Positions 4,088-52,953 of a DNA stretch of 64,000 nt are shown piece by piece. The position numbers and the translations under genes were made by a program. The notes under the pieces are model-generated. The model was given only the letters and a program-made list of their open reading frames with translations, was not told where the DNA came from and made no database searches. The DNA comes from a virus, in the IMG/VR virus record IMGVR_UViG_3300045008_000200, positions 1-64,000 of that record; one strand, written 5' to 3'. Every line of letters starts with the position of its first letter. Positions within the stretch are counted from its first letter, which is position 1.

Positions 4088-4105
4088 TGCATTCAGGGGT
4101 TGACG

Positions 4106-6076
4106 ATGTTGCCGATTACGCCTTTCCAGCTTACCGACACATTTCTTGAGCAATACAAACACAAGCCCCCGGCGTGGGGTTACGGAGTAGTTGGATGGCT
4201 CACCTTTCTTCGCACATACGCCCGTCCAAAAGAGGGTGGTGGTGTGGAAGACTGGTGGGAGACCGTAAAGCGCGTGGTGGAGGGGTGTTACGCGGTCCAA
4301 CGGTATCACTGCGACTTGCATAAACTTCCGTGGAATGGGCAGAAAGCGCAGCATTCAGCGCAGATCATGTACGACCTGATTTTTCACTTCAAATTCCTTC
4401 CGCCGGGCCGTGGGTTGTGGGCGATGGGCACTGACTATGTGTGGACCCGTGGTGCGGCTTCCCTCAATAATTGTTCTTTCTATTCCACGAGGGATATTCG
4501 ACAGGACTTTGCCGCGCCTTTCCTCTTTTTGATGGACATGAGTATGGTCGGTGTGGGTGTTGGTCTGGACACCCGTGGTGCAGGCACTTGCACTATCAAG
4601 CACCCGCCCGGTCAGTCGTCCAATCCTTTCGTGGTGGAAGATTCGCGGGAAGGGTGGGTGGCGTCGGTCAAAGTTCTTTTGGATGCCTTCTCCGGCAAGG
4701 GTCCATTGCCTAGCGGCTTTGATTACTCGCGGGTGAGACCGGCGGGGAGTCCATTGCGGGGTTTCGGTGGGGTGGCTTCTGGTCCCGGTCCTTTGGAGGA
4801 GTGCCACGATGCTCTGCTTGGTCTTTTTACAGATCACATTGAGAGGCCGGTGACTTCCCGGATCATCGTGGACATGGCCAACATTCTCGGTCGGTGCGTG
4901 GTGGCCGGGGGCATTCGTCGGACGGCGGAGAACATCTTGGGCGCTCCCGATGACGCCGAATTTTTGGACTTGAAAAATCCGTCTCTGCATCCCAAGGAGT
5001 TGCGGGAGTGGCGGTGGGCAAGCAACAATTCCGTGCTGGCGGAAGTCGGCATGGATTACTCTCCGTTTGTGGATCGCGTGATGGCGAACGGGGAGCCGGG
5101 TTTTTTCTGGTTGGACAACGCACAGCACTACCGCAGGATGGCCGATCCCCGCGGGGATTGGGACACTTTTGCTCTTGGGTGTAATCCGTGTTTTGAGCAG
5201 ACGTTGGAATCAGGTGAATTATGCAATTTGGTTGAGACCTTTCCCGCGCACCATGCTTCTTACGAGGAGTACCAACGCACCCTCAAGTTCGCCTACCTTT
5301 TTGCCAAGGTGGTCTCTCTGATTCCCACGCATAACTCCAACTCCAACGCGATTATCGGTCGGAACAGGCGTGTGGGTACGTCCATGAGCGGCATCACGCA
5401 GGCGATTCACAAATTCGGCTTCCGGCAGTTCATGGAGATGTGCAATCGCGGTTACAACTATCTGCGGCATCTGGACAAGATTTACTCGCGGTGGCTTTGT
5501 ATCCCCGAATCCATCAAGCTCACGTCGGTCAAACCGTCCGGCACCGTCTCGTTATTGGCTGGGGCCACTCCCGGTATTCACTTTCCCAAGGCACAGTTCT
5601 ACGTTCGCAACATTCGGTTTGATCCGTTGTCACCCCTTTTGGAAGTCTTGGCCAAGGCGGGGTATTCAACGGAGTCTTCGGTGGCGAAGGATGGTACGGT
5701 GGTTGTATCGTTCCCTGTGGAACAGCCGCACTTTTTGAAGTCAGAGGGGAACGTCTCCTTGTGGGAGCAGATGGAATTGGCCGCGCAGATGCAGCATTGT
5801 TGGGCGGACAATCAGGTGTCTATCACCGTTGCTGTGCGTGATCGTGATGCGGCAGACCTGCCTCGGTGTCTTTCCATGTACGATACTCGTTTGAAGAGCG
5901 TGAGCTTCATTCCAGAGGGGAAGAAGCACGGCTTCAAGCAGGCTCCATACATTCCGATTACGGAAGACGAATACAAGGAGATGAGGGCGAAGATCAAACC
6001 CCTCAAGGGGATGGCCGGAGCCGCGGCCCATGAGGTCACGGAAAAGGGTTGTGATGGCGAAACCTGCACAATCTGA
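4106..6076 (+). CDS. Adenosylcobalamin-dependent (class II) ribonucleotide reductase, monomeric type
   Basis: This 656-residue enzyme would make deoxyribonucleotides for phage replication using coenzyme B12. Expected class II residues are visible: a redox Cys in LNNCSF (~C123), the thiyl Cys and Glu in NPCFE (~C362, E364), the second redox Cys in ELCNLVE (~C373), the SVKPSGTVSLLAG loop with PGIHFP, and a C-terminal shuttle pair CDGETC. Length is somewhat below the ~740 residues of Lactobacillus RTPR. The start has an AGGGG ribosome site, just after the 4048-4087 hairpin. Class II enzymes work with or without oxygen. Confidence 0.92.
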   Translation: MLPITPFQLTDTFLEQYKHKPPAWGYGVVGWLTFLRTYARPKEGGGVEDWWETVKRVVEGCYAVQRYHCDLHKLPWNGQKAQHSAQIMYDLIFHFKFLPPGRGLWAMGTDYVWTRGAASLNNCSFYSTRDIRQDFAAPFLFLMDMSMVGVGVGLDTRGAGTCTIKHPPGQSSNPFVVEDSREGWVASVKVLLDAFSGKGPLPSGFDYSRVRPAGSPLRGFGGVASGPGPLEECHDALLGLFTDHIERPVTSRIIVDMANILGRCVVAGGIRRTAENILGAPDDAEFLDLKNPSLHPKELREWRWASNNSVLAEVGMDYSPFVDRVMANGEPGFFWLDNAQHYRRMADPRGDWDTFALGCNPCFEQTLESGELCNLVETFPAHHASYEEYQRTLKFAYLFAKVVSLIPTHNSNSNAIIGRNRRVGTSMSGITQAIHKFGFRQFMEMCNRGYNYLRHLDKIYSRWLCIPESIKLTSVKPSGTVSLLAGATPGIHFPKAQFYVRNIRFDPLSPLLEVLAKAGYSTESSVAKDGTVVVSFPVEQPHFLKSEGNVSLWEQMELAAQMQHCWADNQVSITVAVRDRDAADLPRCLSMYDTRLKSVSFIPEGKKHGFKQAPYIPITEDEYKEMRAKIKPLKGMAGAAAHEVTEKGCDGETCTI

Positions 6077-6278
6077 AAGAAGGCGATTGCAAAGTTGTCG
6101 AAATTGCCGCACAGTATGTGTGGTAAGGGATTCGTCCGGGCTTTGTGACTTGTGCCGCGGAGTGCCCGTTGCTTCCACGGTTCGCAAGGTGGGTTTCGAC
6201 AATGAAAGTGTGGTGACACGCACCTTGTTTGGTGGGAGAGAAGATGCCCGAAGAAAAGTCAAACAAAGATTCCGCTAG
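6054..6278 (+). CDS. Small zinc-ribbon protein
   Basis: The 74-residue protein has a four-cysteine cluster (CRNCRTVC then CDLC) typical of a small treble-clef or zinc ribbon, and a basic C-terminus. It overlaps the end of the ribonucleotide reductase gene and runs into the start of the portal gene, so it is probably translated by coupling. Function is unknown. An upstream in-frame ATG at 6030 is possible but would lie deeper inside the reductase gene. Confidence 0.55.
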   Translation: MAKPAQSERRRLQSCRNCRTVCVVRDSSGLCDLCRGVPVASTVRKVGFDNESVVTRTLFGGREDARRKVKQRFR

Positions 6279-9069
6279 GCCGGGGTATTTTGAGGCTCTT
6301 GTTGCCGATTCCGAGCTAACCATTGTCAAGGTTTTCGGTGGCGAGAGTGACGTGGGTTTACCCGGAGCCGCGAAGTCTCAACAGCTTCCGCCTAACTACT
6401 TTGAGCAGGACATTCGTGCGGGGAAGGTTATTGCTCCGCTCTATGATCCGCTGGTGTGGGCTTTCCTTCTTGAGCAGAGTACCCGCCTCGCCACGCTGGT
6501 TCGCAGCATGGCGAACAACACCGTGGGGTTGGGATGGGAGCTTGTGCCGGTCAAGGAAGAGGAGACGTGGCTTGAACAGAACAAGGATGCAATCGCGGCG
6601 GAGAAAGAGAACGTCACCGGTCTCTTTGAGGCTCCCAATCCTGAGTTGCCTTTCTGTGAAACTCTAAAGTGCGTCAAGATTGATGAGGAAGCGACCGGCG
6701 GCGGTTGGCTTGAAGTGTTGCCCACCGTGAGCGATCCTCACGCCATTGCCGGTTTTGACCACATCCCGTCCTATACGATGCGCGTTGCCAAAGAAGGCGA
6801 CAAATACGTGCAAATGCGTCCTTCCGACACGTCCAAGCGCGTGTATTTCAAGCCGTATGGGGAACGGCGTGACTTGAATTGCGAAACCGGCGAGTGGGGG
6901 ACGGACAAGATTCCGGTGCCGAAGGACAAGCTGGCGCATGAGGTTCTTTACTGGAAGCTCTACTCTCCGCGGTCTTCTTTTTACGGTGTCCCGCGTGCTG
7001 TTGCCACCGCACCGGCGATTGCCGGAACACGCTTGGCGCACCGGCGGAACGTCAATTTTTTCGAGAATGATGCATGTCAGCCAAAAAGTGCAATGATTCT
7101 CACACCTTACGGGTGGTCCACGATGGGGGAGATGTGCGTTGGCGCTCTTGTCATCGGTTCTGATGGCAAGGCTCATGCGGTTACGGGGGTCTTCCCACAG
7201 GCCGGTGAGCGGGATGTGTACCGGGTGCATTTCTTCGGCGGTGCTTCAACGGAATGCTCTTTGGATCACGTTTGGACCGTGACCAACGCTTATGATCGGA
7301 AGCGGGGTGTGATGCGAAAGATGACCCTAGAGGATATTCTCAAAGACGGTTTATTCTACGAGTGCGGTACGGCGAAGTGGGCCGTGCCGATGCTGGACCC
7401 CGTGGAGTATGCGCCGGTGGAATCTCTCTCCGTGGACCCCTATTTGCTTGGGTATCTTTTGGGTAATGGGTGCTTGCGTGGCGGTGGGGTATCCATTTCT
7501 TGCAATGCTACCGACACGGATTTTGTGGAGAGCATGTTTAAGAGTACCACGGGACTTCCCGTTTCTCGGTCGGATATGAAAGGTTGGTCCACGCTGCGAT
7601 CTTGTGGTGGTCGTAATAATTCCATCCGTGAGGCGTTGAAAGTCTTGGGTGTTTACGGTCTTTTGGGAAAGGAGAAATTCATTCCTGAGAGCTACTTGCG
7701 GGCGTCTGTGGCGGATCGTACTGCTCTTCTTCAAGGTTTGATTGATTCGGATGGGCATGTGGGGGATACTTTTGTCCGCTTTACGACGGCCTCGCGCCGC
7801 TTGGCGGAGGGCGTGCAGGATTTGGTGGGTTCCTTGGGGGGTGCTACGACGTTTGCTCCTTGTAAGGGGCGCTCCACCATGAATGTCACCATTCGGCAGT
7901 TGCCGGAAGAGATTGTGCCGGTGCGTTTGCCTCGAAAGGCTGCGGCCTATTCAATGTTGTCGGTGACACGGGTTCGCACCATGATAGGTGCAGAGTTTGT
8001 CCGAAAAGAAGCGGTACAGTGTATTCGCGTGGACACGCCGGATTCGCTTTACGTCACGGATAATTTCATTCTTACGCACAATACGCCCCGGTTGGCCGTG
8101 GTCGTGAACGGCGGGGAGCTTTCGTCCGAGAGCCTTGAGATGATTCGGGACTTTGCGGAAGTTCGTGGGAAGGGTGTGGCGAATGCCGGGCGTGTCATGG
8201 TGTTGCAGGCGCGTGCCGCGGATAACATCACGCAGAACACGGATCAGTTGAAGATTCAGTTGGTGCCTTTGACAGTTGGTGTGCAGGATGACGCCTCGTT
8301 TGCCAAATACATCGCCATGAACAATGAAGAGATCAGGGAAGCCTTCGGTATCGGGCAGATTTTCATTGGTACGTCGGACAACGTGAACCGGGCCGTGGCT
8401 CTGGCAATGAAGCAGTTGACCGTGGAGCAGGTCTTTGAGCCGGAAGCCGTGCGGTACGAGTACAAATTCAACCTCATCTTGCGTGATCGTTTCGGTGTGA
8501 AGCACATCCGGTTGAAGTTCAAGCGGCCTCGTACCACGGATTTGCAGGCGGAGGCACAGGCATTCTCCATGTTGGCCGCGGCTGGCGGAGTTACGCCCAA
8601 CGACATTCGTGACTTCCTTGGAAAGCCGCGGTTTGAGGGCGCGTGGGCCAACACTCCCATCGCCATTCTTCGTTCCGGCATGATGGAGAAACGTGGTGAA
8701 GCGGATGCGACTCTTTGGACGCATTACGGGGACAAGCTGCCGTCTATGCGTCTTACGGATGAACAGGCTGATTTGGCCGAGGCTCAAGCGGGGACGGCGA
8801 AGCAGCAAGGAGAGACGCAAAAGATAATGGTACCGATGCAGCAAGAGGGTCTGAAAGCGCAGTTGGAAGTGACCAAAGCGCAGGCTGCGAAGCTCTTGCA
8901 GGAAGCCAGAACAGGCGGGCAGGCTCCGACTCCGACGCAGATTCAGGCTGCGGCGAAGGAGTTTTGGGATGATGACTACCTCGCGCTCATGGAGCAGGTG
9001 CAATCGCTTGCAGACAAGCTCGCTGGACTCGGCATGGCGGTGGAAGTTCGTCCGGTGGTGGAGATATGA
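6244..9069 (+). CDS. Portal protein (PBSX/XkdE-like) containing an intein
   Basis: The 941-residue precursor is a portal, the dodecameric ring through which DNA enters the head, split by an intein at residues 278-613. Removing the intein gives a ~605-residue portal with typical text such as VWAFLLEQSTRLATLVRSM and YSPRSSFYGVPRA before the insertion and LAVVVNGGELSSES and IREAFGIGQIFIGTSDNVNRA after it. The insertion lies within the conserved segment FFENDA/TPRLAVVV. The C-terminal ~130 residues are Gln/Ala-rich and helical. The ATG has a GGGAGAG ribosome site and overlaps the upstream zinc-ribbon gene. The next gene has its own promoter. Confidence 0.88.
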   Translation: MPEEKSNKDSARPGYFEALVADSELTIVKVFGGESDVGLPGAAKSQQLPPNYFEQDIRAGKVIAPLYDPLVWAFLLEQSTRLATLVRSMANNTVGLGWELVPVKEEETWLEQNKDAIAAEKENVTGLFEAPNPELPFCETLKCVKIDEEATGGGWLEVLPTVSDPHAIAGFDHIPSYTMRVAKEGDKYVQMRPSDTSKRVYFKPYGERRDLNCETGEWGTDKIPVPKDKLAHEVLYWKLYSPRSSFYGVPRAVATAPAIAGTRLAHRRNVNFFENDACQPKSAMILTPYGWSTMGEMCVGALVIGSDGKAHAVTGVFPQAGERDVYRVHFFGGASTECSLDHVWTVTNAYDRKRGVMRKMTLEDILKDGLFYECGTAKWAVPMLDPVEYAPVESLSVDPYLLGYLLGNGCLRGGGVSISCNATDTDFVESMFKSTTGLPVSRSDMKGWSTLRSCGGRNNSIREALKVLGVYGLLGKEKFIPESYLRASVADRTALLQGLIDSDGHVGDTFVRFTTASRRLAEGVQDLVGSLGGATTFAPCKGRSTMNVTIRQLPEEIVPVRLPRKAAAYSMLSVTRVRTMIGAEFVRKEAVQCIRVDTPDSLYVTDNFILTHNTPRLAVVVNGGELSSESLEMIRDFAEVRGKGVANAGRVMVLQARAADNITQNTDQLKIQLVPLTVGVQDDASFAKYIAMNNEEIREAFGIGQIFIGTSDNVNRAVALAMKQLTVEQVFEPEAVRYEYKFNLILRDRFGVKHIRLKFKRPRTTDLQAEAQAFSMLAAAGGVTPNDIRDFLGKPRFEGAWANTPIAILRSGMMEKRGEADATLWTHYGDKLPSMRLTDEQADLAEAQAGTAKQQGETQKIMVPMQQEGLKAQLEVTKAQAAKLLQEARTGGQAPTPTQIQAAAKEFWDDDYLALMEQVQSLADKLAGLGMAVEVRPVVEI
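7075..8082 (+). mobile_element. Intein with LAGLIDADG homing-endonuclease motifs, inside the portal gene
   Basis: This 336-codon in-frame insertion starts with Cys (splicing block A, CQPKSAMILTPYG) and ends FILTHN before a Thr +1 extein residue (blocks F/G). Block B is recognisable near ECSLDHVWTVT. Two LAGLIDADG-like motifs are present, YLLGYLLGNG and LLQGLIDSDG, with the acidic residues degenerate in the first (N-G instead of D-G). Splicing should yield a continuous portal. Whether the endonuclease cuts is uncertain because the first motif lacks its Asp. Confidence 0.9.
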
Positions 9070-19438: not shown

Positions 19439-21859
19439 ATGGAACAGTTTGCACCGGGCGTTGAGATTCTTGAAAAAGATTCTCTGCCCACCATTCAAAC
19501 TTCGGGCGCGCAGTTCTCCGGCATCGTGAGCACCGCGCAACGTGGCCCGGACAACGTGGTGACGCTGCTTTCCGGCATGGAGCAGTTCAAAAAGCGGTAC
19601 GGCTACTACGGCGGCACCTTCTTGGGCTACCTCATGGCGAACGGGTACTTCGATCAGCTTGGCGTGGGTCTCTTCTTTGTTCGCGCCACGCATCACGACG
19701 GGGTGACTGGTGTGTACGTCCCCCGCGTGATGAATCAACAGTTGAACATCATCAGGACCATTTCCGCCATCACGAACGCCAACCCCGCCCGTGTGACGAC
19801 TTCGGTGGCGCATGGTTTCGTCCGCGGTCAGAAGGTTCGCATGGTGGACGTGACGGGCATGACGCAGGTGAGCGGCAACGTCTATGTCGTCACTCCGCAC
19901 GCCACCGATCCCACCATATTCTTCTTGGACGGTTGCGATTCGACCGCTTACGGCGTCTTCATCGCCGGAACGGTGGAAGGGTACGCGGAATCGTCCATCA
20001 TCCAAGCGTCTTCGACTGGCGCTTGGGCGAACAGCACGCTTCTCACCTGCCAGAAGTACGCGCTTTCCCTGAATGCTGAAACCACGGCGGGTGCAAGCAC
20101 CTGCACGCCCGCCAGCATCGCCGGGATGGAAGTTGGTGACGTGGTGTACTTGGAGCAGTATTTGAACATTCTGCCCAACATCGTCACCGCCATCAACACG
20201 GGGACCAATCAGGTCACTTTCCGCACGGCGCTCCCGGCGACGGTGGCGATCACCAGCATGACGGTGGGCGCTCCCGGTGCCCCGATTATCGTGACGAAGG
20301 CTGGGCATGGTCTCAAGACCGGCCAGTACGTCAAGATCAGCGGCAACACCCGCGTCACTGGCCTTCCGACTCTCAACGCAAATTGGGTCATCGCCCGAAC
20401 GGGCGCTGATACGTTCACCTTGGACGGCAGCGATTCCATCAACTACACTGACACTGGTGTTGGAAGCTATGGCAATTACAACCTGACGTGGGACACCGGT
20501 GCGTACCTCAAGTCCACCAACACGCACAGGACCAAGACGGCGCTCTCCGTCGCGTACACGTCGGGGACACAGATTCAAGTGCTTTCCGCCGCGACGATCA
20601 ACGTGGGCGCTCTGCTCCTGTTGGTCACGTCCACTCGTGTCGTGGAAGGCCGGGTGGTTTCCAAAAACGGGAACATTCTGAATGTGACCATTACCAAGGC
20701 GGATGGCACGGCGACTTTGCCGGTCAACACCTTGGTTGTGTCCGTCAACTTCGATCTTCTGCATCAAGTGGATGGCACCACCACGCGGTACGAAGGTCTC
20801 TCCTGTGAATCCGAAGACAACATTGACCACTACGTTGCCCGCTTTGCGCAGAGCGAATACCTGCGGGGCGTGGCTGGCGATACCGGTGCGGGCGGAGACT
20901 ACAAGGCGTACACGTATCCGATGGCGTTCAATTACGAAGCCATGACGCAGGGCGCGGACGGCACCACACCGGACGACACGGACAAACTCGGTACGAACAC
21001 CAACAAGGCGTACAAGCACGGCATGGCGCTCTTTGACAGCGTGCCGACGCTTCCTCAATTCGCCGTTCCCGGTGGGTCCGTGACGGTGCAGCGGGCTGCG
21101 GACACTTACGCTCAGAGTCGTGGCGACACCATCAACGTCATCGCTGCACCGGAAACGTCCGACACGCAGGAAGAGCTTTTGGCCTTCCGCAACGTGACGC
21201 TCAATCTGGTGTCGTCCTACACCGCGCTCTACGCTCCGTGGGGTCGTGAGCCGAATCCCGACATTCCGGGTGCCTATGTGAATGTGCCCCCGGAAGGTCG
21301 TATCTTGGGCATGATCTCGGAAGTGTCGAAGCGGCGCGGAATCCAGAAGCCCCCGGCCAACGAGCTTGTGAAGTTTGCGAGCTTGGTGGCGTCCTTCACT
21401 CCGACCGAGCACGGCGTTCTCAACGCCGCTGGTGTGAACTTGATCCTCATGGAAGAGGGTCGCGGAATCCGGTGCATGGGTGCCCGGACTCTGTGGCCCA
21501 ACGCCGACCGGAAACAGTACCTCAACGTCCGATCCATCCTCAACGGCGTGAAGCGCGGTCTCAAGGAGTTCGGAAAGGCCATCGCGTTCGAGGCTTCCGA
21601 TGACCTGCTGTGGAAGTACATCCAGACCGAAGGCAACAAGTGGATGGAGCAGCGGTGGAAGGACGGGTGGTTTTTCCCGCGAAACGACAAGACGAAGGCG
21701 TTTTTCTTCAAGTGCGATGCCACGACCAACACCGAAGAGTTGCGCCTGAGCGCCAAGGTCCGCTCGGTGGTCGGAATCAATCCCGTCCTGCCGGGTGAGT
21801 TGATCCAGTTCGAGTTGATGCTGTGGGACGGCGGCGTGGTCGCGGTCAACGAGCTATAA
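19439..21859 (+). CDS. Contractile tail sheath protein
   Basis: The 806-residue protein has the conserved sheath N-terminus (FAPGVEILEKD, QFSGIVSTAQRGP, then FFVRATHHDG) and C-terminal core (LWPNADRKQYLNVRSILNG, KYIQTEGNKWMEQRWKDGW, and the final LRLSAKVRSVVGINPVLPGE). It polymerises around the tube and contracts at infection. Residues ~100-360 are an insertion with two related beta-sandwich repeats of the 'AHGF..GQKVRMVDVTG...' and 'GHGLKTGQYVKISGNTRV' type, found also in other phage surface proteins, which would project from the sheath. Confidence 0.88.
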   Translation: MEQFAPGVEILEKDSLPTIQTSGAQFSGIVSTAQRGPDNVVTLLSGMEQFKKRYGYYGGTFLGYLMANGYFDQLGVGLFFVRATHHDGVTGVYVPRVMNQQLNIIRTISAITNANPARVTTSVAHGFVRGQKVRMVDVTGMTQVSGNVYVVTPHATDPTIFFLDGCDSTAYGVFIAGTVEGYAESSIIQASSTGAWANSTLLTCQKYALSLNAETTAGASTCTPASIAGMEVGDVVYLEQYLNILPNIVTAINTGTNQVTFRTALPATVAITSMTVGAPGAPIIVTKAGHGLKTGQYVKISGNTRVTGLPTLNANWVIARTGADTFTLDGSDSINYTDTGVGSYGNYNLTWDTGAYLKSTNTHRTKTALSVAYTSGTQIQVLSAATINVGALLLLVTSTRVVEGRVVSKNGNILNVTITKADGTATLPVNTLVVSVNFDLLHQVDGTTTRYEGLSCESEDNIDHYVARFAQSEYLRGVAGDTGAGGDYKAYTYPMAFNYEAMTQGADGTTPDDTDKLGTNTNKAYKHGMALFDSVPTLPQFAVPGGSVTVQRAADTYAQSRGDTINVIAAPETSDTQEELLAFRNVTLNLVSSYTALYAPWGREPNPDIPGAYVNVPPEGRILGMISEVSKRRGIQKPPANELVKFASLVASFTPTEHGVLNAAGVNLILMEEGRGIRCMGARTLWPNADRKQYLNVRSILNGVKRGLKEFGKAIAFEASDDLLWKYIQTEGNKWMEQRWKDGWFFPRNDKTKAFFFKCDATTNTEELRLSAKVRSVVGINPVLPGELIQFELMLWDGGVVAVNEL

Positions 21860-32437: not shown

Positions 32438-32919
32438 TTCGGCAAACTCCATACGATCCTGTTGGTGTGGGAATCAAAAGTCCCATGTCCTTCGATGGGG
32501 GTGGGCTGAATCTCACCGCTAGAACACGGGTCAAGGTGGTAGGGGATGCCGGAATTGGGGACGGTCCTCAGACCTTCACCCGTGAAGTGATTTCCGCGAC
32601 GAACGAAGAGCGCAGGCAGACCATTGCGCAGGTGATGAATCGAATTGCCCTCACGCCGCAGAAGACGCGCTTTATGGACGGCGGCTACGGGTCTCTGGTG
32701 CCGGATTTTGTGTTTGAGACGAATGAGGATTGGGTGTGGGCGCTGGCGGCGTCCTACGCGAGCTTGGCGATTTGGTCTAGCGATGCCCGCGTGGTGGTGC
32801 AACAGGCGTGGGGCGAAGCGTCCGATGATGAAGAATACGCCTTCCTTGTGCATGTGGCGTACTCCGTGAAAGGCACCAGCCTGCTCGGAGAAGTGCAGAT
32901 TGGGGTGGTGCAGCGATGA
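32434..32919 (+). CDS. Baseplate wedge protein, divergent gp25/gpW-like
   Basis: The 161-residue protein directly precedes the J-like gene, the usual position of gp25. The text RQTIAQVMNRIALTPQKTRFMDGGYGS followed by a helix (WVWALAASYASLAIWS) resembles the gp25 core, which starts sheath polymerisation. Similarity is weak by eye, so gene order carries much of the call. Confidence 0.6.
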   Translation: MIRQTPYDPVGVGIKSPMSFDGGGLNLTARTRVKVVGDAGIGDGPQTFTREVISATNEERRQTIAQVMNRIALTPQKTRFMDGGYGSLVPDFVFETNEDWVWALAASYASLAIWSSDARVVVQQAWGEASDDEEYAFLVHVAYSVKGTSLLGEVQIGVVQR

Positions 32920-34709
32920 CGAAATCGTGGAGACTTCCTTCCCTTGATTATACGAGCCGGGACTACCAAGCCATCCGCAACGACGCGGTGGAGCGAATCA
33001 GCGCCTTTATCGAAGAGTGGACGGACCACTCTCCATCTGATCCCGGCATTGTGATTTTACAGCTTTTTGCGGGGATGCACGATGTTTTGCACTTTTACGC
33101 CGACCGCGGGGTGAAGGAAAATCTCATCACCGATGTTCTTGGTCGCAGAAACATGATTGCGCTGGCCGCGCTGGTGGGACAGAGGCTTTTGGGCAAGGCT
33201 CCGGCGGTTGCCAATATGACTTTCGACATTCCAGCGCAGCCTACGGATACTTCGATACCCACCGGCACTCTCTTGACGACGCAGGGGGTCACTCCGGCGG
33301 TTTATTTTGAGACCCGGCAGGATGTGACGATCTTGGCGGGCGATACTCGTGTGGAAGACGTGCTTGCCGCGGCGGGGCGTACTTTCTCCGGCACTATCGG
33401 CACGTCCAACGGACAGGAATGGCAGAGCTTCCTTGTGGCGGATACGGACGATGTACTTGATGAGGGTATTACCGTTACCGTGGACGGGGTGCCTTGGACT
33501 TATATTGCGAGCCTGGGCTTGGCGGAGCCGAATGGGACCAACTGGACGTACACACGGGATGAGCGTGGACGGGTGTATGTTTGCTTCGGCAACGGTACGG
33601 CTGATTCCGGGTATGGATTGATCCCCGACAACCTTGCGGTGATTGAGGCGGCGTGGCGACAGGGCGGGGGGCGGTTTTCTTCGGTCCCCAAGAACACCAT
33701 TCGTACCGTGGTCTCCACCATCATGTCCGGTGGCATACCCATCTCCGTATCTTGTACGAATCCGAATCCGGCGGAAGGTGGGGATGAGGAAGAGGATATT
33801 GAAGTGGCCCGGCGACGCATCCCACGGGCCTTCAAGGCGAATGACAGGGGCGTGACCGCTGGCGATCTGGAAGCGTTGGCGGAGAGCATTCCCGGTGTGG
33901 TGCAATCGCTTGCATTGGTGACGCAGCCGGGGCATTGGACCGTGTATGTTGCCCCGCATCCTACGGTGGGAGCGGGTACACTTGGCGGTACCGATCCGTT
34001 TGGGTACACCGTTCTGGCAACGCAGGAGCTTTCGCAGCAGGCATTGGCAACGGTTGTGACCAATGCTCTGCTCGGCAAAAAGATGGGCACGGATAGTGTG
34101 CGAGCGATGCTGGTGCGGTACATGCCGGTGGAGATCGTCACCACGCTCTACCTGCTCCCCGGAGCGCGGCGGGATGCCGTGGAGGGGGAGCTTGCTACCT
34201 TCTTGAAGAGCTACTTCGACGTGACCACCCGCGAGATTGGGTTGACCGGGCGTGTGCAGGGGGACGCCAACTTATCGAAGTGGGAAGACGACGTGGGGGA
34301 TTTGGAAGGGGTGGATTACGCCACCACTACGCGGTTTCAGCTTCGTCCGATGGTGGAGACCATTCAGGCGGTGGGCACTCCCGTCTTCTCAAGCATCGTT
34401 ACCACGGAGCACACACGGCACGCCTATTGGGAAGTCCTGTTTACCAGTCCCACGGTGTTCGTGGTGTATCGACAGGATATTGGCGGACCGCGAATCCTGC
34501 AATCCGACTTGGGGCTTGTTGGGAAGTCCTATGTGTCGGCAGATGGGGAAGTTCAATTCTCCATCACGGTGCCTTCCGGCGGTACTCCCCCGGCTTCGGG
34601 AGATCGTTTTCGTTTTCGAGTGTCTCCGCAGCTTGATACGGTGAGGATATTGACCGGTGAGATGGCTGTTGGCGGTATCCTGAGTTATACAATGGAAGGC
34701 GGTGCGTGA
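32916..34709 (+). CDS. Baseplate J-like protein (gp6/gpJ family)
   Basis: The 597-residue protein has the family N-terminus (LDYTSRDYQAIRNDAVERI, then DPGIVILQLFAGMHDVLHFYADR) and the typical PAQPTDTSIPTGTLLTT strand, followed by an EEEDIEVARRRIPRAFKANDRGVTAGDLEALA segment near residue 300, which is characteristic of J-like proteins. It builds the wedge ring of the baseplate. Confidence 0.85.
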   Translation: MTKSWRLPSLDYTSRDYQAIRNDAVERISAFIEEWTDHSPSDPGIVILQLFAGMHDVLHFYADRGVKENLITDVLGRRNMIALAALVGQRLLGKAPAVANMTFDIPAQPTDTSIPTGTLLTTQGVTPAVYFETRQDVTILAGDTRVEDVLAAAGRTFSGTIGTSNGQEWQSFLVADTDDVLDEGITVTVDGVPWTYIASLGLAEPNGTNWTYTRDERGRVYVCFGNGTADSGYGLIPDNLAVIEAAWRQGGGRFSSVPKNTIRTVVSTIMSGGIPISVSCTNPNPAEGGDEEEDIEVARRRIPRAFKANDRGVTAGDLEALAESIPGVVQSLALVTQPGHWTVYVAPHPTVGAGTLGGTDPFGYTVLATQELSQQALATVVTNALLGKKMGTDSVRAMLVRYMPVEIVTTLYLLPGARRDAVEGELATFLKSYFDVTTREIGLTGRVQGDANLSKWEDDVGDLEGVDYATTTRFQLRPMVETIQAVGTPVFSSIVTTEHTRHAYWEVLFTSPTVFVVYRQDIGGPRILQSDLGLVGKSYVSADGEVQFSITVPSGGTPPASGDRFRFRVSPQLDTVRILTGEMAVGGILSYTMEGGA

Positions 34710-37525: not shown

Positions 37526-37551
37526 GCCTGACCAAGAAGGAGTAAGTGAAA

Positions 37552-40500
37552 ATGGCTCCTAGAATCATGCAACAGCCGTTCAACGGGGACTACTCGCAGG
37601 ACTTGTTTTCCGAGCGCAAACAGTTCCTTGGTGCGCTTTTCCAGCAAGGCAAGAAGATCATGGACGCTGACTGCAATGATTCCACCGTGGCTCTGGTGGG
37701 ACGGTTGCAGCGCATGATTCAGTCGGCCTTTCCCGCGCAGGCGGTGGGGAAGGCGTTTCAAATCATTCAGTCTCCGACTGCGACCACCAACAATTTCTTG
37801 GTCCGCGGGTGCTGGGAAGACGGCTTCTACGCGCAAGCGGCGCTCCCTGAGACCTATGCCAAGCTCTTCATCGGCGGTCTGTGCGCCCTCATCTCCAACT
37901 GCACGACCACCACGGCGGGAAAAGAGGGCATTGAATTTGCCTGGACGGGGCCGACTACGGGTGGCGGGGAATACATCGCTGGGGCGCTTCACCATCGGAG
38001 CACGGCGCTCGCCCCCTTGGTCTTGACCGATACCAACGCTCGATTCGTGGTCAACTCCCTCAAGGGCATGACGCTTGTTCCGTCCGTGCCCGTGGGGGGT
38101 GCACACACGTACCAGATTCTTTCCAACACGGAAACGCAGATCACGGTGGTTGATCTTGGCGGCACGGACATGACGCTTTTTGCGTCTGCCGGGGAGTTCT
38201 ACCGCATCATGCCGTCCACGCCCATTGCGGGTGGAGCCGGACAAGGACGCCGTGACTTGGTGTTTTTGGATGTGTACGTGGGGGAAATGGACTCCGCGGA
38301 AGACTCCACGCTTCTGCATCCCATCGCCGGTGGTTACGAAGCGGCGCGGCGCATGGTGATTCGACAGCAGGTGTTGGTGCGCGAGAACAAGGACGGATCG
38401 GGAAACGATGTGCTTGGGACACTGGCTGACCCGGCGTACACGCGCCCCGGCCTCCCGTGGGCGAGTGATCCCACGGCGACGGAGAGCTACTATCAGGATG
38501 GGAACGGACAGACGCATTATTGCGTGGCTTTGGCGGAACTTTCCCGTCCGCAAGCCGACGCCACTCTTGTCACGGCGTACATCACCGACCTGCGTGACCC
38601 ATACTTCGGCTCTTCACGGGAAGTGGTGGAAGCCCGCCGCGGGTACGACAACCTCTATGACAGCATTGAAGCCGCGGAAAACAAGCCTTCCCGTGCGATG
38701 GCGCTTCCCCATGAAGCCCCGACTCCGGTGACGCTTTCTCAAACCAACGTCTTGCAAATTACTGACACGGCCTACGTTGGCGAATCTGTGTCCGACAACA
38801 TCAAGGAGACGTTGAAGCTCTTTGAGTACGATCCGCAGCACCCGTCCGTGACAAGCCGGAATCCGTTGCGTGGCGATCCGGCTTCTCTCATCTCGCCCAT
38901 CACGTCTTACGCCAGTTTGACCGGACAAGACTTGGCGGTACGGATGCGCGATCCCGTCACGGGGGCAGTGGTCAGTTCCACCGTGGGAAATTTCGGTGGC
39001 TGTGCGTCTCCGCTCACCGCGGCGCAGTTGGTGACACTGCTCAATGGCACGGTGTTCCCGGCCATGACCATCACTTTCTCCACCGGCGCTGTTGCCCTCA
39101 GTACGGTGTTGGTGGCGCAGGAGATTCAGAGCAAATACCTTGGATTGCGCTCTCTCATCACGGGCCGGTATTCGTACATCGAAATTCTCTCCACGTATCC
39201 AATCTCCAATCTGTTCGGCACCATTGATCCGGCCACGCATTTCTATCAGAAGTTTGCCGCCTACGAAGGGCCGGGTAACACGTTTTCGTCGGTGCGCACA
39301 CACTCCGGGTTGGAACCGGAAGTGGTGGACATTGTGAACGCCGGGGGTACCAGCATCATCGGCGGCACGACGACTCCGCACTTCTTCCTCAATCCGTACT
39401 TCTGCTTCGACATGATCTTGAACGTGCAGGCGATTGCACGTTACGGTATCAAAACGACCTTTGCCACGGAGCCGTCCAAGGCGTACATGCAGCGCGATCT
39501 TCACAACGGTCGGTCGCAACTGGATTATCGCTTGCAGGTGGAGCATGATGTTGACGGACAGCATCAGCGGGGGTTTCTTACTGAACCCATGATTGATCTC
39601 GGCATTGGTGCCGATCAGGTTAGCGCGGCTTCCATTCGTCTCTTTGCCACCATCACCAACGTCGGTCTTGCCGATGTGACGACCATTCAACAGGCGCTTG
39701 AGGCGGTCCTTCCGCTGGCTGGCGGAACGCTTACGGGACTGCTCACCATCAACGCCGGTGTGCCGGTGGGTCTGAATCTCTCCGCTTCGCGCATCGCATC
39801 CGTGGCCGATCCGGTGAATCCGCAGGATGCCGCGACCAAAGCCTACGTGGACATGGTGGCCGCTGGTCTGGACATAAAGCCGTCTTGCGTGGCTCTCTCT
39901 GACACTCCGGGGACGCTTGCCACCGATTTCAAGGCGGGGGATACGCTGGATGGCGTGGTATTGGGCTTGGGACAGCGCATTTTGCTCACCGCTCAGGCCG
40001 ATGCCAAGGAGAACGGCATTTGGGTGACGACAAATGCCGCTCCGACACGTCCGGCGGATTTCAGCCCTACGACTCCGAATACCACCGGTTCGTTGGTTTT
40101 CATCGAAGACGGTACGAACTACCACGATACGCAGTGGGTGATGACCACGTATCCCGATCCGGTGATTGACACCGACGCGAATGACTGGACGCAGTTTGCC
40201 GGGGCGGGGACGTATGTGTGGCGAGACGGTATTGACGCCACGGGCATGACCGTGGACGTGAAGGTGCTGGCTCCCATCACGATCAGCGGTGGCATCGGTT
40301 CCGGCGGCGTCGTGATGCTTGATTACTCCCGCCTGTTTCAGCTTGTGGCGAATGTCTTTGACGTGGACTCCGGGGAGCTTGCCGGGACTGGTTTGGAAGT
40401 GGGGCCGTCCATTGACACCTATTCCGGGCCTTTGCGCATCGCGGCGGCTGCGGCGGGGAACGGTCTCACTGGTGGTAGCGGTTTCCCCTTGGCGGTGCTG

Positions 40501-42390
40501 GCGAATCCGACAAACGCGAGTATCACCGTGGGAGTGGCGGGAGTATCGGTGCGGTACAACGCCGCTGCCGCTTTGACGGTCGGAGCTTCCGGTTTGGCCG
40601 TAAACTCCACCATCGCGGGTGGCGGTTTGACGTGGGCGGCGGGTGTTGTGGCAGTGGGAGCCGGTGACGGTATCACGGTCAACGCCGATGACGTTGCTGT
40701 AAACAACGGAAACAACTTGGGTTTTGATGGGTCTGCTCTGGTTACGCTTGGTGTGTCTTCATGGGTGTCCGGTGATTCGGGCACAGTGAGCAATGTCAAC
40801 CGACAGGTCATAATCGGGTCGTCCGGTTCGCAGATTGTTAGTGTTCCCCAAGGGAGCATCATTGCTTCCGAGTCTTCTGCTATGGTCGGGCCTATTACGG
40901 GAGAAGAGGATGTTGCCATTCTTGCTTCTTCTGACGTGATTATGTGGGGCGCGATGGAGCAGGTGGCTTTTGTCGGGGTTTACGATTGCGATGTGAGCTT
41001 TCCATCCGCGGCCACCGGCACCACCGTTCGTCGGGCCATCGTGGGCGGTTCTACCACCAGCAACTTGACGGGGGATGATGATTCCGCTCGTTTATATAAT
41101 ACGGCTATGTTCGCCTGCGTGGATGGGTACATTACGGCCAGTGAATCCAATATCAACGAAGCCGCGGTGATCGCTTCTGACGGCAGCGGAATTTTGGCGG
41201 ATGCTTATACCATTAACGAATCCGCGGTAATTGCATCTAAGGATAGTGAGATTGATAATACCAGCACTGGCGCTTCGCAGAACGTGGGACAGTGTGGGCT
41301 TTTTGCCACATCCAATTCCACAATAGATCATGGGCTTACGTCTGCTGTTGTTGCGTCTTCGTATGGTTTGGTGGGTCGCGGATCGCATGATGGGGATATT
41401 TTTAACTCTGCAATCTTGGCGTCTTATGATGTGGACATGGGGTACGGAAACTACACTGGCGGTGTTCATAACTGTGCCATCGTCGCTTCCCGCGACGGAT
41501 GCCGTGTTACGGCCCGTAGTACCTATGATACATATAGCTGTGCCATCGTTGCTTCGGATGATACCTGCGTGGTGGACGCGACTGCTGGAAATACAAATCA
41601 AGTTTTGATTGCCGCGTCCGACACGGCGACTGTAGGTGATGAAGTGACGATTGGCCTCACTATGTTGTCCACTTATAATTCGGTGCCGAATAATATCCCG
41701 CGGCCCATTTCTGGCATTTATGATGACTTACCAAGTTACTCAGTGCAGGGCGTTTACAACAACGGTGAAGCGTGGGCGCTGGATACGGTGGACGGGGATA
41801 TTTATTGCACCGGCGCTTTGTACGATGGATGGGCACCCGATTATGCGGAGATGTTCGAGAGTGCGGATGGATTGAGCATCCCGGTCGGCACCTTGGTCAC
41901 ATTCGATGAGGCTTCGCCGGACAAGATCAGGGTTGGGAAGAAGGGGGATGACTACCTGTTGGGGGCCGTTTCTGCGACGGCTGGTGTGGTGCTTGGGTCG
42001 GCGTCTCTCCTTTGGGCCAAGAAGTTTGAACGTACCGAGTTCGGTGAGGATATTTATGAGGATGTTCCCGATACGGCATGGACACCGAAGGAAGGCGAGA
42101 TTGAGGAACAGCGCCCGAAGATTCGTCAAAAGAAGCTGACGAAGGACTACGACCCTTCCAAGAAATACATTCCCCGTGTGAAGCGCAGTGAGTGGCACAC
42201 TGTTGGCCTTGTCGGGCAGCTTTTGGTTCGGTGTGACGACAAATTGAAAGCGCGGGATTGGGTCGGATCAGACAACGAAGGTCGGGCTACCCGTTCACAG
42301 GAGCGTGGGATGGGCTGGCGGTGCATGGCGATTCAGGTGCCGTATGACGCTGATAAGGGGTACGGTGTGGCTCTCATAATGGTTCGCTAA
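37552..42390 (+). CDS. Large tail fibre with C-terminal autoproteolytic chaperone (Peptidase G2-like)
   Basis: This 1612-residue protein has three visible parts. The N-terminal ~100 residues (FNGDYSQDLFSERKQFLGALFQQGKKIMDADCND) match a baseplate-attachment domain common in phage fibres. The middle carries NPQDAATKAYVD-type fibre segments and, at ~1085-1380, a repeated A-I-V/I-A-S-x-D pattern like trimeric adhesin heads. The last ~190 residues (YAEMFESADGLSIPVGTLVTFD, LLGAVSATAGVVLGSASLLW) resemble the intramolecular chaperone that trimerises and cleaves itself. AAGGAG lies 9 bases before ATG. Likely receptor binding. Confidence 0.82.
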   Translation: MAPRIMQQPFNGDYSQDLFSERKQFLGALFQQGKKIMDADCNDSTVALVGRLQRMIQSAFPAQAVGKAFQIIQSPTATTNNFLVRGCWEDGFYAQAALPETYAKLFIGGLCALISNCTTTTAGKEGIEFAWTGPTTGGGEYIAGALHHRSTALAPLVLTDTNARFVVNSLKGMTLVPSVPVGGAHTYQILSNTETQITVVDLGGTDMTLFASAGEFYRIMPSTPIAGGAGQGRRDLVFLDVYVGEMDSAEDSTLLHPIAGGYEAARRMVIRQQVLVRENKDGSGNDVLGTLADPAYTRPGLPWASDPTATESYYQDGNGQTHYCVALAELSRPQADATLVTAYITDLRDPYFGSSREVVEARRGYDNLYDSIEAAENKPSRAMALPHEAPTPVTLSQTNVLQITDTAYVGESVSDNIKETLKLFEYDPQHPSVTSRNPLRGDPASLISPITSYASLTGQDLAVRMRDPVTGAVVSSTVGNFGGCASPLTAAQLVTLLNGTVFPAMTITFSTGAVALSTVLVAQEIQSKYLGLRSLITGRYSYIEILSTYPISNLFGTIDPATHFYQKFAAYEGPGNTFSSVRTHSGLEPEVVDIVNAGGTSIIGGTTTPHFFLNPYFCFDMILNVQAIARYGIKTTFATEPSKAYMQRDLHNGRSQLDYRLQVEHDVDGQHQRGFLTEPMIDLGIGADQVSAASIRLFATITNVGLADVTTIQQALEAVLPLAGGTLTGLLTINAGVPVGLNLSASRIASVADPVNPQDAATKAYVDMVAAGLDIKPSCVALSDTPGTLATDFKAGDTLDGVVLGLGQRILLTAQADAKENGIWVTTNAAPTRPADFSPTTPNTTGSLVFIEDGTNYHDTQWVMTTYPDPVIDTDANDWTQFAGAGTYVWRDGIDATGMTVDVKVLAPITISGGIGSGGVVMLDYSRLFQLVANVFDVDSGELAGTGLEVGPSIDTYSGPLRIAAAAAGNGLTGGSGFPLAVLANPTNASITVGVAGVSVRYNAAAALTVGASGLAVNSTIAGGGLTWAAGVVAVGAGDGITVNADDVAVNNGNNLGFDGSALVTLGVSSWVSGDSGTVSNVNRQVIIGSSGSQIVSVPQGSIIASESSAMVGPITGEEDVAILASSDVIMWGAMEQVAFVGVYDCDVSFPSAATGTTVRRAIVGGSTTSNLTGDDDSARLYNTAMFACVDGYITASESNINEAAVIASDGSGILADAYTINESAVIASKDSEIDNTSTGASQNVGQCGLFATSNSTIDHGLTSAVVASSYGLVGRGSHDGDIFNSAILASYDVDMGYGNYTGGVHNCAIVASRDGCRVTARSTYDTYSCAIVASDDTCVVDATAGNTNQVLIAASDTATVGDEVTIGLTMLSTYNSVPNNIPRPISGIYDDLPSYSVQGVYNNGEAWALDTVDGDIYCTGALYDGWAPDYAEMFESADGLSIPVGTLVTFDEASPDKIRVGKKGDDYLLGAVSATAGVVLGSASLLWAKKFERTEFGEDIYEDVPDTAWTPKEGEIEEQRPKIRQKKLTKDYDPSKKYIPRVKRSEWHTVGLVGQLLVRCDDKLKARDWVGSDNEGRATRSQERGMGWRCMAIQVPYDADKGYGVALIMVR

Positions 42391-49749: not shown

Positions 49750-49943
49750 TGCCCAAGGTTCTTCCGAAGATTCCGCCTACGACTGAGGGTGACGCGACGC
49801 ACGATTGGATGGACGACGCCAAGGCGGAGAAGCCGCTATTTCCCGGCAGGCAGGCACAGTATTGTCGCCGATGCGGGATCATGCGGCGGATAGATCACAA
49901 ACATCGTCCTTGCCCCGGAAAGGTAAGGGTTGTCTTGAGATGA
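49749..49943 (+). CDS. Small zinc-ribbon-like protein before hsdM
   Basis: The 64-residue protein has [19 protein letters not shown], a compact three-Cys plus His cluster that may bind zinc. It ends in an ATGA overlap with hsdM, so it is co-translated with it. Its role in methyltransferase expression is unknown. Confidence 0.6.
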
Positions 49944-51664
49944 GGCCGATCAAGAAAAAGGAAGAACGGGAGCAATTTGACAAGGATGCACGCGAAGTGA
50001 TTGCGGCGCTAGCTCGTGAAGCAGAAATCGATGAGGCAGATGTCGTGGAATCGCCAGAAGACCACGCTGCAGGAGTAACGCGGAGGCGCAGGGGGCGCGC
50101 GGCTGCTGCGACTCCCACAACAAAGCCCATGGAGCAAATGCTCTGGGACGCAGCGTGCTCGATTCGCGGTGAAAAGGACGCAGCGAAGTTCAAAGACTAC
50201 CTTTTGCCGCTCCTCTTCCTCAAGCGCCTGTCGGACGTGTTCGACGACGAGATCGTCCGTTTGGCCGAGGACTATGGCGACCGGGCGACCGCTCTGGAGA
50301 TCGCTGAGTCCGATCACTCGCTGCTTCGCTTCTATTTGCCCCCCGAAGCGCGCTGGGCGGTCATCAATGGCCGCGAGAGCTTCGATTGGCCGCCCAAGGA
50401 GCGTCCGCGTGACATCGGCGAGCACCTGACCAAAGCCGTGCGCGCTGTGGTTAAATACAACCCGTCGCTGTCCGGTGTCATCGATGTTGTGGACTTTGCC
50501 GCCGAACGAAGCGGCGAGCGTGATGTGAATCCGGCCAAGCTGCGCGACGTGGTAGAAACCTTCTCCGACCCCCGCTATCGGCTCGGTCTCGCTGACGTCC
50601 AGCCCGACTTCCTCGGAAGGGCTTACGAGTACCTCCTGCGGAAGTTCGCTGAAGGTTCGGGGCAGAGCGCGGGAGAATTCTTCACGCCGACTGAGGTGGG
50701 CTTATTAATGGCTCACATCCTGCGACCCAAGCCTGGACAAGAGTGTCATGACTTCGCTTGCGGCTCATCAGGGCTGCTAATCAAGCTCCAACTTGTAGCA
50801 CGCGAATTCGACCCAACGAGTAAGGTGCCGCTCAAGCTATCAGGCCAGGAACTCCAAGCCGAAAGTTACGCCATCGCCCGTATGAATGCCATCATCCACG
50901 ACATGGAGGTGGACCTTCAGCGCGGCGACACGATGATCAATCCCAAATTCCGTTCAGCGGATGGCCGTATCAAGACTCAAGACCTCGTGGTCGCCAATCC
51001 GATGTGGAACCAGCCCTTCTCGACGGACATCTTCGCCAACGACCCCTTCGACCGGTTCCGTCCGACTGGCGGCATTACCACCGGCAAAGGCGACTGGGCC
51101 TGGCTCCAGCACGCATTCGCATGCATGAATGAGAACGGTCGTGCCGCTGTAGTGCTCGACACCGGTGCAGTGACGCGGGGTTCTGGCTCAAAACACGAGG
51201 ACAAGGAGCGCAACATCCGCAAGTGGTTCGTGGACAACGATCTCGTCGAGGGCATCGTGCTACTCCCGGACAATCTTTTCTACAACACGACGGCGGCGGG
51301 CATTATCGTGGTGTTGAACAAACGCAAGCCCCCCGCACGCAGAGATAAAATTGTACTGCTCAACGCAAGCAAGCGCTTCAAGAAGGGACGGCCCAAGAAC
51401 TACTTGCCCGAGGAGGATACCCGATCCATCGCCGAGATGTTCAACAAGGCTGAGCCGGTCGATGGCGAGATCGCGGTCATCACCTGTGACCAGGCCAAGG
51501 AGGCGGACTACAACCTAAGTCCGAGCAGATGGGTCAATGGGGCAGAGCAGTGTGACGCATTCGATCTTGCTCACTTGGTTCACGAACTCGGCTTGCTGTC
51601 ACAAGAGGCACGGGGGGTGGACGACCGTCTCCTGGAACTTTTAAAGCCCCTTGCTGTGGAGTGA
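49940..51664 (+). CDS. hsdM: Type I restriction-modification DNA methyltransferase subunit HsdM
   Basis: This 574-residue adenine-N6 methyltransferase has an N-terminal helical domain ([41 protein letters not shown]), AdoMet motif I ([14 protein letters not shown], preceded by [13 protein letters not shown]) and catalytic motif IV as NPMWNQ, a known variant of NPPF. The first ~60 residues are an extra charged extension. With HsdS it would methylate a two-part recognition site. No hsdR is visible. Codon choice looks different from neighbouring genes, suggesting acquisition from a bacterium. Confidence 0.92.
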
Positions 51665-51666
51665 CT

Positions 51667-52953
51667 ATGGCGACTTCCTGGCTCCGAGTTTCGCTCCGTT
51701 CGATCACCAATCCAACCTCTACTTGGAGTCCGGCGAACGAGCCACGATCAACCATTCGTTATGTAGATGTATCTGCAATCTCTCGCGAGCGCCTATCTGT
51801 CGTTCTTCCGGACGAGAAACCTGCCTCGACTGCGCCAAGCAGAGCGAGGAAGAAAATTCAAATGGGCGATACTCTCTTCGCAACGATCAGGCCGAGCCTG
51901 AGACGTGTCGCTCAAGTCCCGGTTTCGCTCGACGGCCAAATTGCTTCGACAGCGTTCTGCGTATTGCGCCCGAATCTGGTCTTCGTCGATCAAGATTTCC
52001 TGTTCTTCGCTACCGTCGAGGACAGCTTTATTAGTTCGGTTTCGGCCCTCGAAACGGGAGCAAGTTACCCTGCAGTTCGCGACTCCGATGTTCTTGACCA
52101 AGAGATTGCGTTGCCGCCCGTGCATGAACAACAACGAATTGTCTCCGTACTGCGATTGGTGCGAAAGGCGTTGTTACAGCACATCGACTTGACCGAGCGC
52201 ACGCATGACCTGAAGGCCGCCGCCATGCGCGAGCTTTTCACACTTGGCCTTCGCTCCGAGCCGCAGAAGGAGACGGGAATCGGATTGGTACCGGGGAATT
52301 GGGAGGTCTGTCGGCTCGACCAACATGCGAAGGTGGTCTCTACCAGGATGTCTTACACGGAATTGGAGTCTAGCCCAGACCATGCCCCTGACGGTGCCAT
52401 CAAAGTCTTGGGAATCAAAGTGTCGGACATGAATTCACCCGGCAACGAGTGTGAGATCCGCACTGGAGCTACAGAACGTCCCATTGCAGAAAAAGATATT
52501 GATCATTATTGCGCTCCACCGGGAACAATTGTTTTCCCGAAAAGGGGTGCCGCGATTGCGACAAACAAGAAGCGCTTGACTGCCGAATGGAGTGTGTTCG
52601 ATCCCAACGTTATTGGCGTGGTACCCGAAACCATCGACCGTCGCTATCTCTTCCATTGGTTCCAGATGTTTGACTTGCGATCAATTACCGAGCCGGGACC
52701 GACACCGCAGTTGAATAAAAAGCACCTTGAACCGCTGTTGATTCCTGTGCCTATAGCAAGAGATGAGCAAGTAGAGATTGCACAGATCCTCGACACCATC
52801 GATCACAAGATCGACCTGCATCGCCGCAAGCGCGCGCTGATCGAGGAGTTGTTCAAGTCGCTGCTGCACAAGCTGATGACCGGCGAGGTCTGCGTCGCTG
52901 ACCTAGACCTATCCGCGCTGCCATCGGATGCTGTTAAAGAGGCAAGACAATGA
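51667..52953 (+). CDS. hsdS: Type I specificity subunit HsdS
   Basis: The 428-residue protein has two target-recognition domains separated by conserved helices: TRD1 ~1-150 ending in QEIALPPVHEQQRIVSVL, and TRD2 ~200-360 starting VPGNWEVCRLDQHAKVV and ending IPVPIARDEQVEIAQIL. The second conserved helix (RRKRALIEELFKSLLHKLMTGEV) is typical. A GTG at 51661 overlaps the hsdM stop and may be the true start. It sets the DNA site for HsdM. Full length, so functional recognition is expected. Confidence 0.9.
   Translation: MATSWLRVSLRSITNPTSTWSPANEPRSTIRYVDVSAISRERLSVVLPDEKPASTAPSRARKKIQMGDTLFATIRPSLRRVAQVPVSLDGQIASTAFCVLRPNLVFVDQDFLFFATVEDSFISSVSALETGASYPAVRDSDVLDQEIALPPVHEQQRIVSVLRLVRKALLQHIDLTERTHDLKAAAMRELFTLGLRSEPQKETGIGLVPGNWEVCRLDQHAKVVSTRMSYTELESSPDHAPDGAIKVLGIKVSDMNSPGNECEIRTGATERPIAEKDIDHYCAPPGTIVFPKRGAAIATNKKRLTAEWSVFDPNVIGVVPETIDRRYLFHWFQMFDLRSITEPGPTPQLNKKHLEPLLIPVPIARDEQVEIAQILDTIDHKIDLHRRKRALIEELFKSLLHKLMTGEVCVADLDLSALPSDAVKEARQ

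Follow-up and report, generated by a model that had tools for sequence, protein, structure and literature searches.

A phage class 1 intein whose first nucleophile was lost is the presumed ancestor of class 3 inteins. Among the class 3 members that have been tested, splicing depends absolutely on the Cys at block F position 4 (F:4) but needs no nucleophile at residue 1 (PMC5222942), and the structure of the MchDnaB1 class 3 intein contains a Cys-His-Thr triad (PMC7664689). Absence of Cys1 was a selection criterion for the 1,701 inteins of the published class 3 set (PMC7891396), and Kelley et al. describe class 3 inteins as without a nucleophile at A1 (PMC5050341), so members bearing Cys1 would be filed elsewhere. 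In PI-SceI, the VMA intein of S. cerevisiae, the two LAGLIDADG Asp residues have been described as ligating metal and as critical to the enzyme's activity (PMC1508164). Phage portal genes are also documented as intein hosts, with six portal inteins tabulated in cluster C1 mycobacteriophages in 2016 (PMC5050341).

Here we analyze an intein in the portal gene of the IMG/VR virus record IMGVR_UViG_3300045008_000200 (83,213 bases), using its first 64,000 nucleotides (hereafter, the window). The intein resembles the class 3 inteins of Mycobacteriophage Bethlehem DnaB, Msm, Mle and Mch DnaB-1, and Bvi IcmO (PMC5222942, PMC7664689) in its His65 and Trp67 numbering, Cys F:4, Thr-His-Asn end, and Thr+1. 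It differs from these in having Cys1, which published class 3 sets exclude, and a LAGLIDADG domain in which one catalytic Asp is replaced. It shares with PI-SceI an architecture of Hint plus LAGLIDADG domains and the equivalent of Asp326; PI-SceI, however, is a class 1 intein with only 15–17% identity (Foldseek), and its Asp218 corresponds to Asn131 in the window. A first-pass annotation of the window had called a portal gene a less usual intein host, a fair description, but not a new one given the C1 mycobacteriophages, and this is not the first portal intein. We located two kinds in C1 genomes, at KFS/TLN in Colt (L162) and at RHW/CRLF in Rahel (L163; slashes mark splice points throughout). 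Both likewise interrupt a phage portal gene, whereas the window portal belongs to another family (no significant BLAST match) and is interrupted elsewhere. By eye, the Colt intein lacks the class 3 Cys at F:4.

An intein within the best-conserved segment of the portal

The portal gene lies on the plus strand, from an ATG at 6244 that follows a GGGAG ribosome-site-like stretch to a stop codon at 9067–9069, and translates as a single 941-residue precursor of the PBSX/HK97 type. An in-frame insert of 336 residues (7075–8082, +), running from Cys1 (TGT, 7075–7077) to Asn336 (AAT), separates an N-extein (6244–7074) ending in NVNFFENDA from a C-extein (8083–9069) that starts at Thr+1 with TPRL. Portal models match on both sides of the insert: the phrog_12 portal profile matches each half separately (N-half, 5.5e-7; C-half, 1.9e-23, where PF04860 matches as well), and the extein matches PF04860 (2.7e-15; 56.8, above the cut-off of 39.1) and TIGR01540 (2.7e-22; 79.4 bits, below its cut-off of 166). 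For the insert itself, the matches are to LAGLIDADG_3 (2.1e-9) and to PHROGs of intein-bearing terminases (3e-23). These exact codons bear out the intein and junctions proposed in the first-pass annotation, and computing the translation without the insert gives the expected portal of 605 residues.

That annotation had also proposed a search of related phages for empty sites. Scanning with the plain sequence of each extein alone returned only IMG/VR contig 3300045007_000250, which is identical to the window over the compared stretches (roughly 13 kb) and thus represents the same virus, not independent evidence. A scan of viral contigs with a DNA pattern for uninterrupted FFENDATP returned 69 stretches, and among these the portals of L010 (55% identity over 587 aligned residues) and L036 (59% over 514) cross FFENDA/TPRL without a gap. 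About ten more relatives also have an unbroken FFENDATPR (L012/L041, L054, L015, L019, L042, L013, L066, and L030). The insert therefore has exact empty homologues in a conserved protein, and its site is the conserved segment that had been claimed: the aligned portals have their longest invariant run at FFENDATPR, of which FFENDATP was already fixed by the search pattern.

Structure prediction agrees with this assignment. AlphaFold, given the insert plus five residues of each flank and an alignment of 30 natural sequences, returned a model with mean pLDDT of 93.5 and pTM of 0.92. Foldseek matched the model over its full length to TliVMA, PI-SceI, and PhoVMA, and over the Hint part to the class 3 DnaB inteins 6RIX, 6RIY, and 6BS8. 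In the PDB, the family profile finds its best match in the MchDnaB1 class 3 intein (6RIX/6RIY), and the alignment pairs both Cys F:4 and the terminal THN. A LAGLIDADG homing-endonuclease domain (PF14528) is nested at approximately residues 113–295 (7411–7959) and aligns, through the family, to PI-SceI residues 206–386. The extein profile matched no solved portal; a fold predicted for L010 with eight relatives was poor (pLDDT 53.6) and was discarded.

The reductase gene directly upstream of the portal gene (4100–6076), an adenosylcobalamin-dependent ribonucleotide reductase, is itself intein-free, and the 83 kb record yielded no other intein of this family. A phage capsid family protein (PF05065; 11523–12836) follows the portal at a short distance, and the protein encoded before it (690 residues) has no family match. 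Further along are a sheath-like protein (19439–21859, below the curated cut-off), a baseplate J protein (32916–34709), and a tail protein whose C-terminal domain is of the self-cleaving Peptidase_G2 type (37546–42390), which together probably indicate a contractile-tailed phage. Genes for the M and S subunits of a type I restriction-modification system (HsdM, HsdS) lie at 49805–52953, and a further N6/N4 methylase is encoded on L179 (4374–5555). Terminase_6N has no match in the whole 83 kb record, so the large terminase either belongs to another family or is missing from the assembly.

A class 3 signature with a variable first residue

The intein has Hint blocks A, B, F, and G, and its class 3 signature is complete: His65 (B:10) and Trp67 (B:12) at 7267–7275, numbered as in the class 3 inteins of Msm and Mle DnaB and of Bvi IcmO (PMC5222942), Cys316 (F:4) at 8020–8022, Thr334-His335-Asn336 (G:5–G:7) at the C-terminal junction (8074–8082), and Thr+1. 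Trp67, Cys316, and Thr334 occupy the class 3 triplet positions when the family is aligned to 6RIX/6RIY. Two scans of viral contigs, clustered at 97%, yielded a family of 89 distinct inteins including that of the window. None of the 89 lacks His B:10, Trp B:12, or Cys F:4, and only one, a frameshifted sequence, is without Thr G:5; because one search pattern contained block B or F residues, this invariance partly reflects how the set was gathered, which does not apply to the variation at residue 1. There the family has Ala (48), Pro (15), Cys (13), Glu (4), Ser (3), Gly (2), Phe (2), Gln (1), and Met (1), with a few calls uncertain where the N-terminal end aligns poorly and the start is unsure.

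On a tree of 88 inteins built with residue 1 left out, residue 1 changed at least 23 times, with at least five switches between Cys and other states. The window intein is nested among Trp-Cys-Thr inteins with Ala1 or Pro1 in this tree, which has no class 1 outgroup. Three host sites (the portal site, GroEL, and helicase AGK/T) hold both inteins with Cys1 and inteins with a non-nucleophilic residue 1. The GroEL-like chaperonins are phage-borne and interrupted at GDG/T by class 3 inteins (L005/L007, L158, and L134), with Cys1 in L005 and L158 and Pro1 in L134. Flips between Cys1 and Ala1 are seen within a tight clade (L126, L128, L148, L182, L184, L185, L191, L194, and L200 versus L195, L196, and L183), which is helicase-hosted where checked (L126, L148); AGK/T is the site at which L126 and its kin stand against L195 and L196. 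One member, L184, combines Cys1 with Asn in the first LAGLIDADG motif.

Since residue 1 is freely replaced and Cys316 never is, Cys316 rather than residue 1 is likely the required nucleophile. By signature and phylogeny, the window intein is a class 3 intein. An older definition of the class excludes Ser, Thr, and Cys at residue 1, and the window intein has Cys1, but the criterion of PMC5222942 is that a nucleophile there is not required, as opposed to absent; we accordingly describe a class 3 signature and clade with a variant residue 1. Among the splicing signals reported in the first-pass annotation, the HN/T junction stands. Its reading of Cys1 as a splicing signal was incomplete, since class 3 signature and phylogeny point to Cys316; the full Trp-Cys-Thr triplet had gone unmentioned there.

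One portal family, several insertions

The same place is occupied in the portal of L003/L082, whose intein is 53–56% and portal 51% identical to those of the window. Homologous places are occupied in portals of other subfamilies, in L080 (YFENAA/P../TPNL), L081 (FFRRGA/P../TPNL), and L084 (FFGNSM/A../TPNL). The inteins of the window, L082, L080, L081, and L084 form one clade (bootstrap/SH-aLRT 100/99), within which the window and L082 are sisters (100/99). Cys1 and Asn131 (GNG) are common to these two only; L080 and L081 (Pro1) and L084 (Ala1) all have GDG. A search for further occupied FFENDA-x-Gln sites returned the window's twin and L003/L004 only.

Two other portals have an empty site of the FFENDA/TPRL type and a filled one elsewhere (L078, equivalent to L039, 1034–3814; L056, 11074–13932, minus strand). 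Their class 1-looking inserts of 357 and 353 residues lie at VNRA/TAF and VNKS/SAF, respectively, and match Intein_splicing, in L078 below the curated cut-off; the L056 insert has, by eye, an apparent HNH-type nuclease (HHTQDSLDNRP). Taken with the same-site clade, this second site shows that inteins have hit the portal more than once within a single group of phages. Neither the class 3 portal clade nor the combination of a Cys1-bearing class 3 variant with repeated use of one portal site is described in the literature searched, which did not extend to the 2011 class 3 expansion paper.

Which residue starts splicing, and does the nuclease still cut?

The reading that we consider likely combines three elements: an intein started by Cys316 in the class 3 manner, a secondary Cys1, and a nuclease probably past double-strand cutting. 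One point against it is that Cys1 occupies the standard class 1 position. The intein might thus splice by the class 1 route, with Cys1 performing the N-S acyl shift and Cys316 a bystander or structural residue; the Cys1 of ordinary class 1 inteins is there, it recurs in L082 and in the GroEL and helicase inteins, and the literature mentions Cys at F:4 in class 1 members (PMC3196547). We nonetheless judge this route unlikely, because same-site sisters that replace residue 1 keep each of Cys F:4, Trp B:12, and Thr G:5, the tree most simply puts the origin of Cys1 inside the Ala1/Pro1 group, and B:7 is Ser in place of the Thr of a typical class 1 TxxH block. Initiation by Cys316, with Cys1 as a secondary gain, is the best-supported reading by sequence and by analogy with tested class 3 inteins. 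Its recurrence in 13 of the 89 inteins suggests that Cys1 may actually be used. If Cys1 has been regained several times in class 3 inteins, two candidate nucleophiles would face one scissile bond, and either could act, or a Cys1–Cys316 disulfide could make portal maturation redox-sensitive, a scheme to which we give little credence. A still more remote alternative is that the insertion is never removed and forms a permanent extra portal domain. Splicing is predicted here from sequence, which leaves some room for this idea, but the catalytic residues are intact at both ends and the insert breaks an otherwise invariant FFENDATPR from which relatives lack exactly that insert, making it exceedingly improbable.

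The nuclease presents a less one-sided case. As the first-pass annotation had noted, its first motif (LLGYLLGNG, 7444–7470) lacks the catalytic Asp: in the family profile Asn131 (AAT, 7465–7467) aligns to PI-SceI Asp218, and Asp226 (7750–7752) of the intact second motif (LLQGLIDSDG, 7726–7755) aligns to Asp326. An enzyme still active despite Asn131, perhaps as a nickase, and an element that still homes are conceivable but doubtful. Such activity would fit the intact Asp226 and the restriction of all eight motif 1 departures in the family to Asn (81 Asp, 8 Asn, no other residue; at least seven changes), although a single transition turns Asp into Asn. It would fit, too, the retention of Asn131 between the window and L082, whose nuclease domains are only 49% identical, so that the substitution is not recent. 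The distance ratio of nuclease to splicing part is likewise no higher for this Asn/Asn pair (1.58) than for pairs of relatives with both Asp residues (median 1.73), a lack of excess decay that argues mildly against a long-dead enzyme. Branch lengths and bootstrapped distance ratios had hinted at a relaxed nuclease domain, with a ratio of ratios of 1.47 for the window and L082 relative to L080 and L081 (95% range 0.85–2.41), but pairs with both Asp residues elsewhere reach similar values and the hint was rejected. Against activity stand the importance of both metal ligands in PI-SceI (PMC1508164) and two inteins, L145 and L150, that pair the motif 1 Asn with loss of the second Asp (motif 2 departs in four of 89), the pattern expected of decay. 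Loss of double-strand cutting and homing is therefore plausible from the aligned residues, and the domain may have retained nicking or some other use.

Proposed mechanism and implications

Under the preferred, Cys316-initiated reading, the portal is translated with a class 3 (Trp-Cys-Thr) intein and its nested LAGLIDADG domain inserted in its most conserved stretch. Cys316, helped by His65 and Thr334, would most likely attack the bond between Ala(-1) and Cys1; transfer of the chain to Thr+1 would follow, and cyclization of Asn336 would free the 605-residue portal. Cys1 would be a later gain of the window lineage and not a required nucleophile. The nuclease would formerly have spread the element into empty FFENDA/TPRL sites; with Asn131, the window copy has probably lost double-strand cutting and would now be inherited mainly vertically.

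The position of the insert within the most conserved portal stretch makes an unspliced chain unlikely to assemble, but the same can be said of most inteins, and a selfish preference for conserved sites explains the position equally well. That the pace of splicing controls procapsid initiation, as the first-pass annotation suggested, is speculative.

With these inteins, the portal joins the phage head proteins that are repeatedly targeted by inteins, at two sites in this family and two others in mycobacteriophages. The family also carries a warning that intein class should not be assigned from residue 1 alone. Inteins in which Cys1 is back in an otherwise complete class 3 active site would offer natural variants for asking if the two splicing routes are mutually exclusive.
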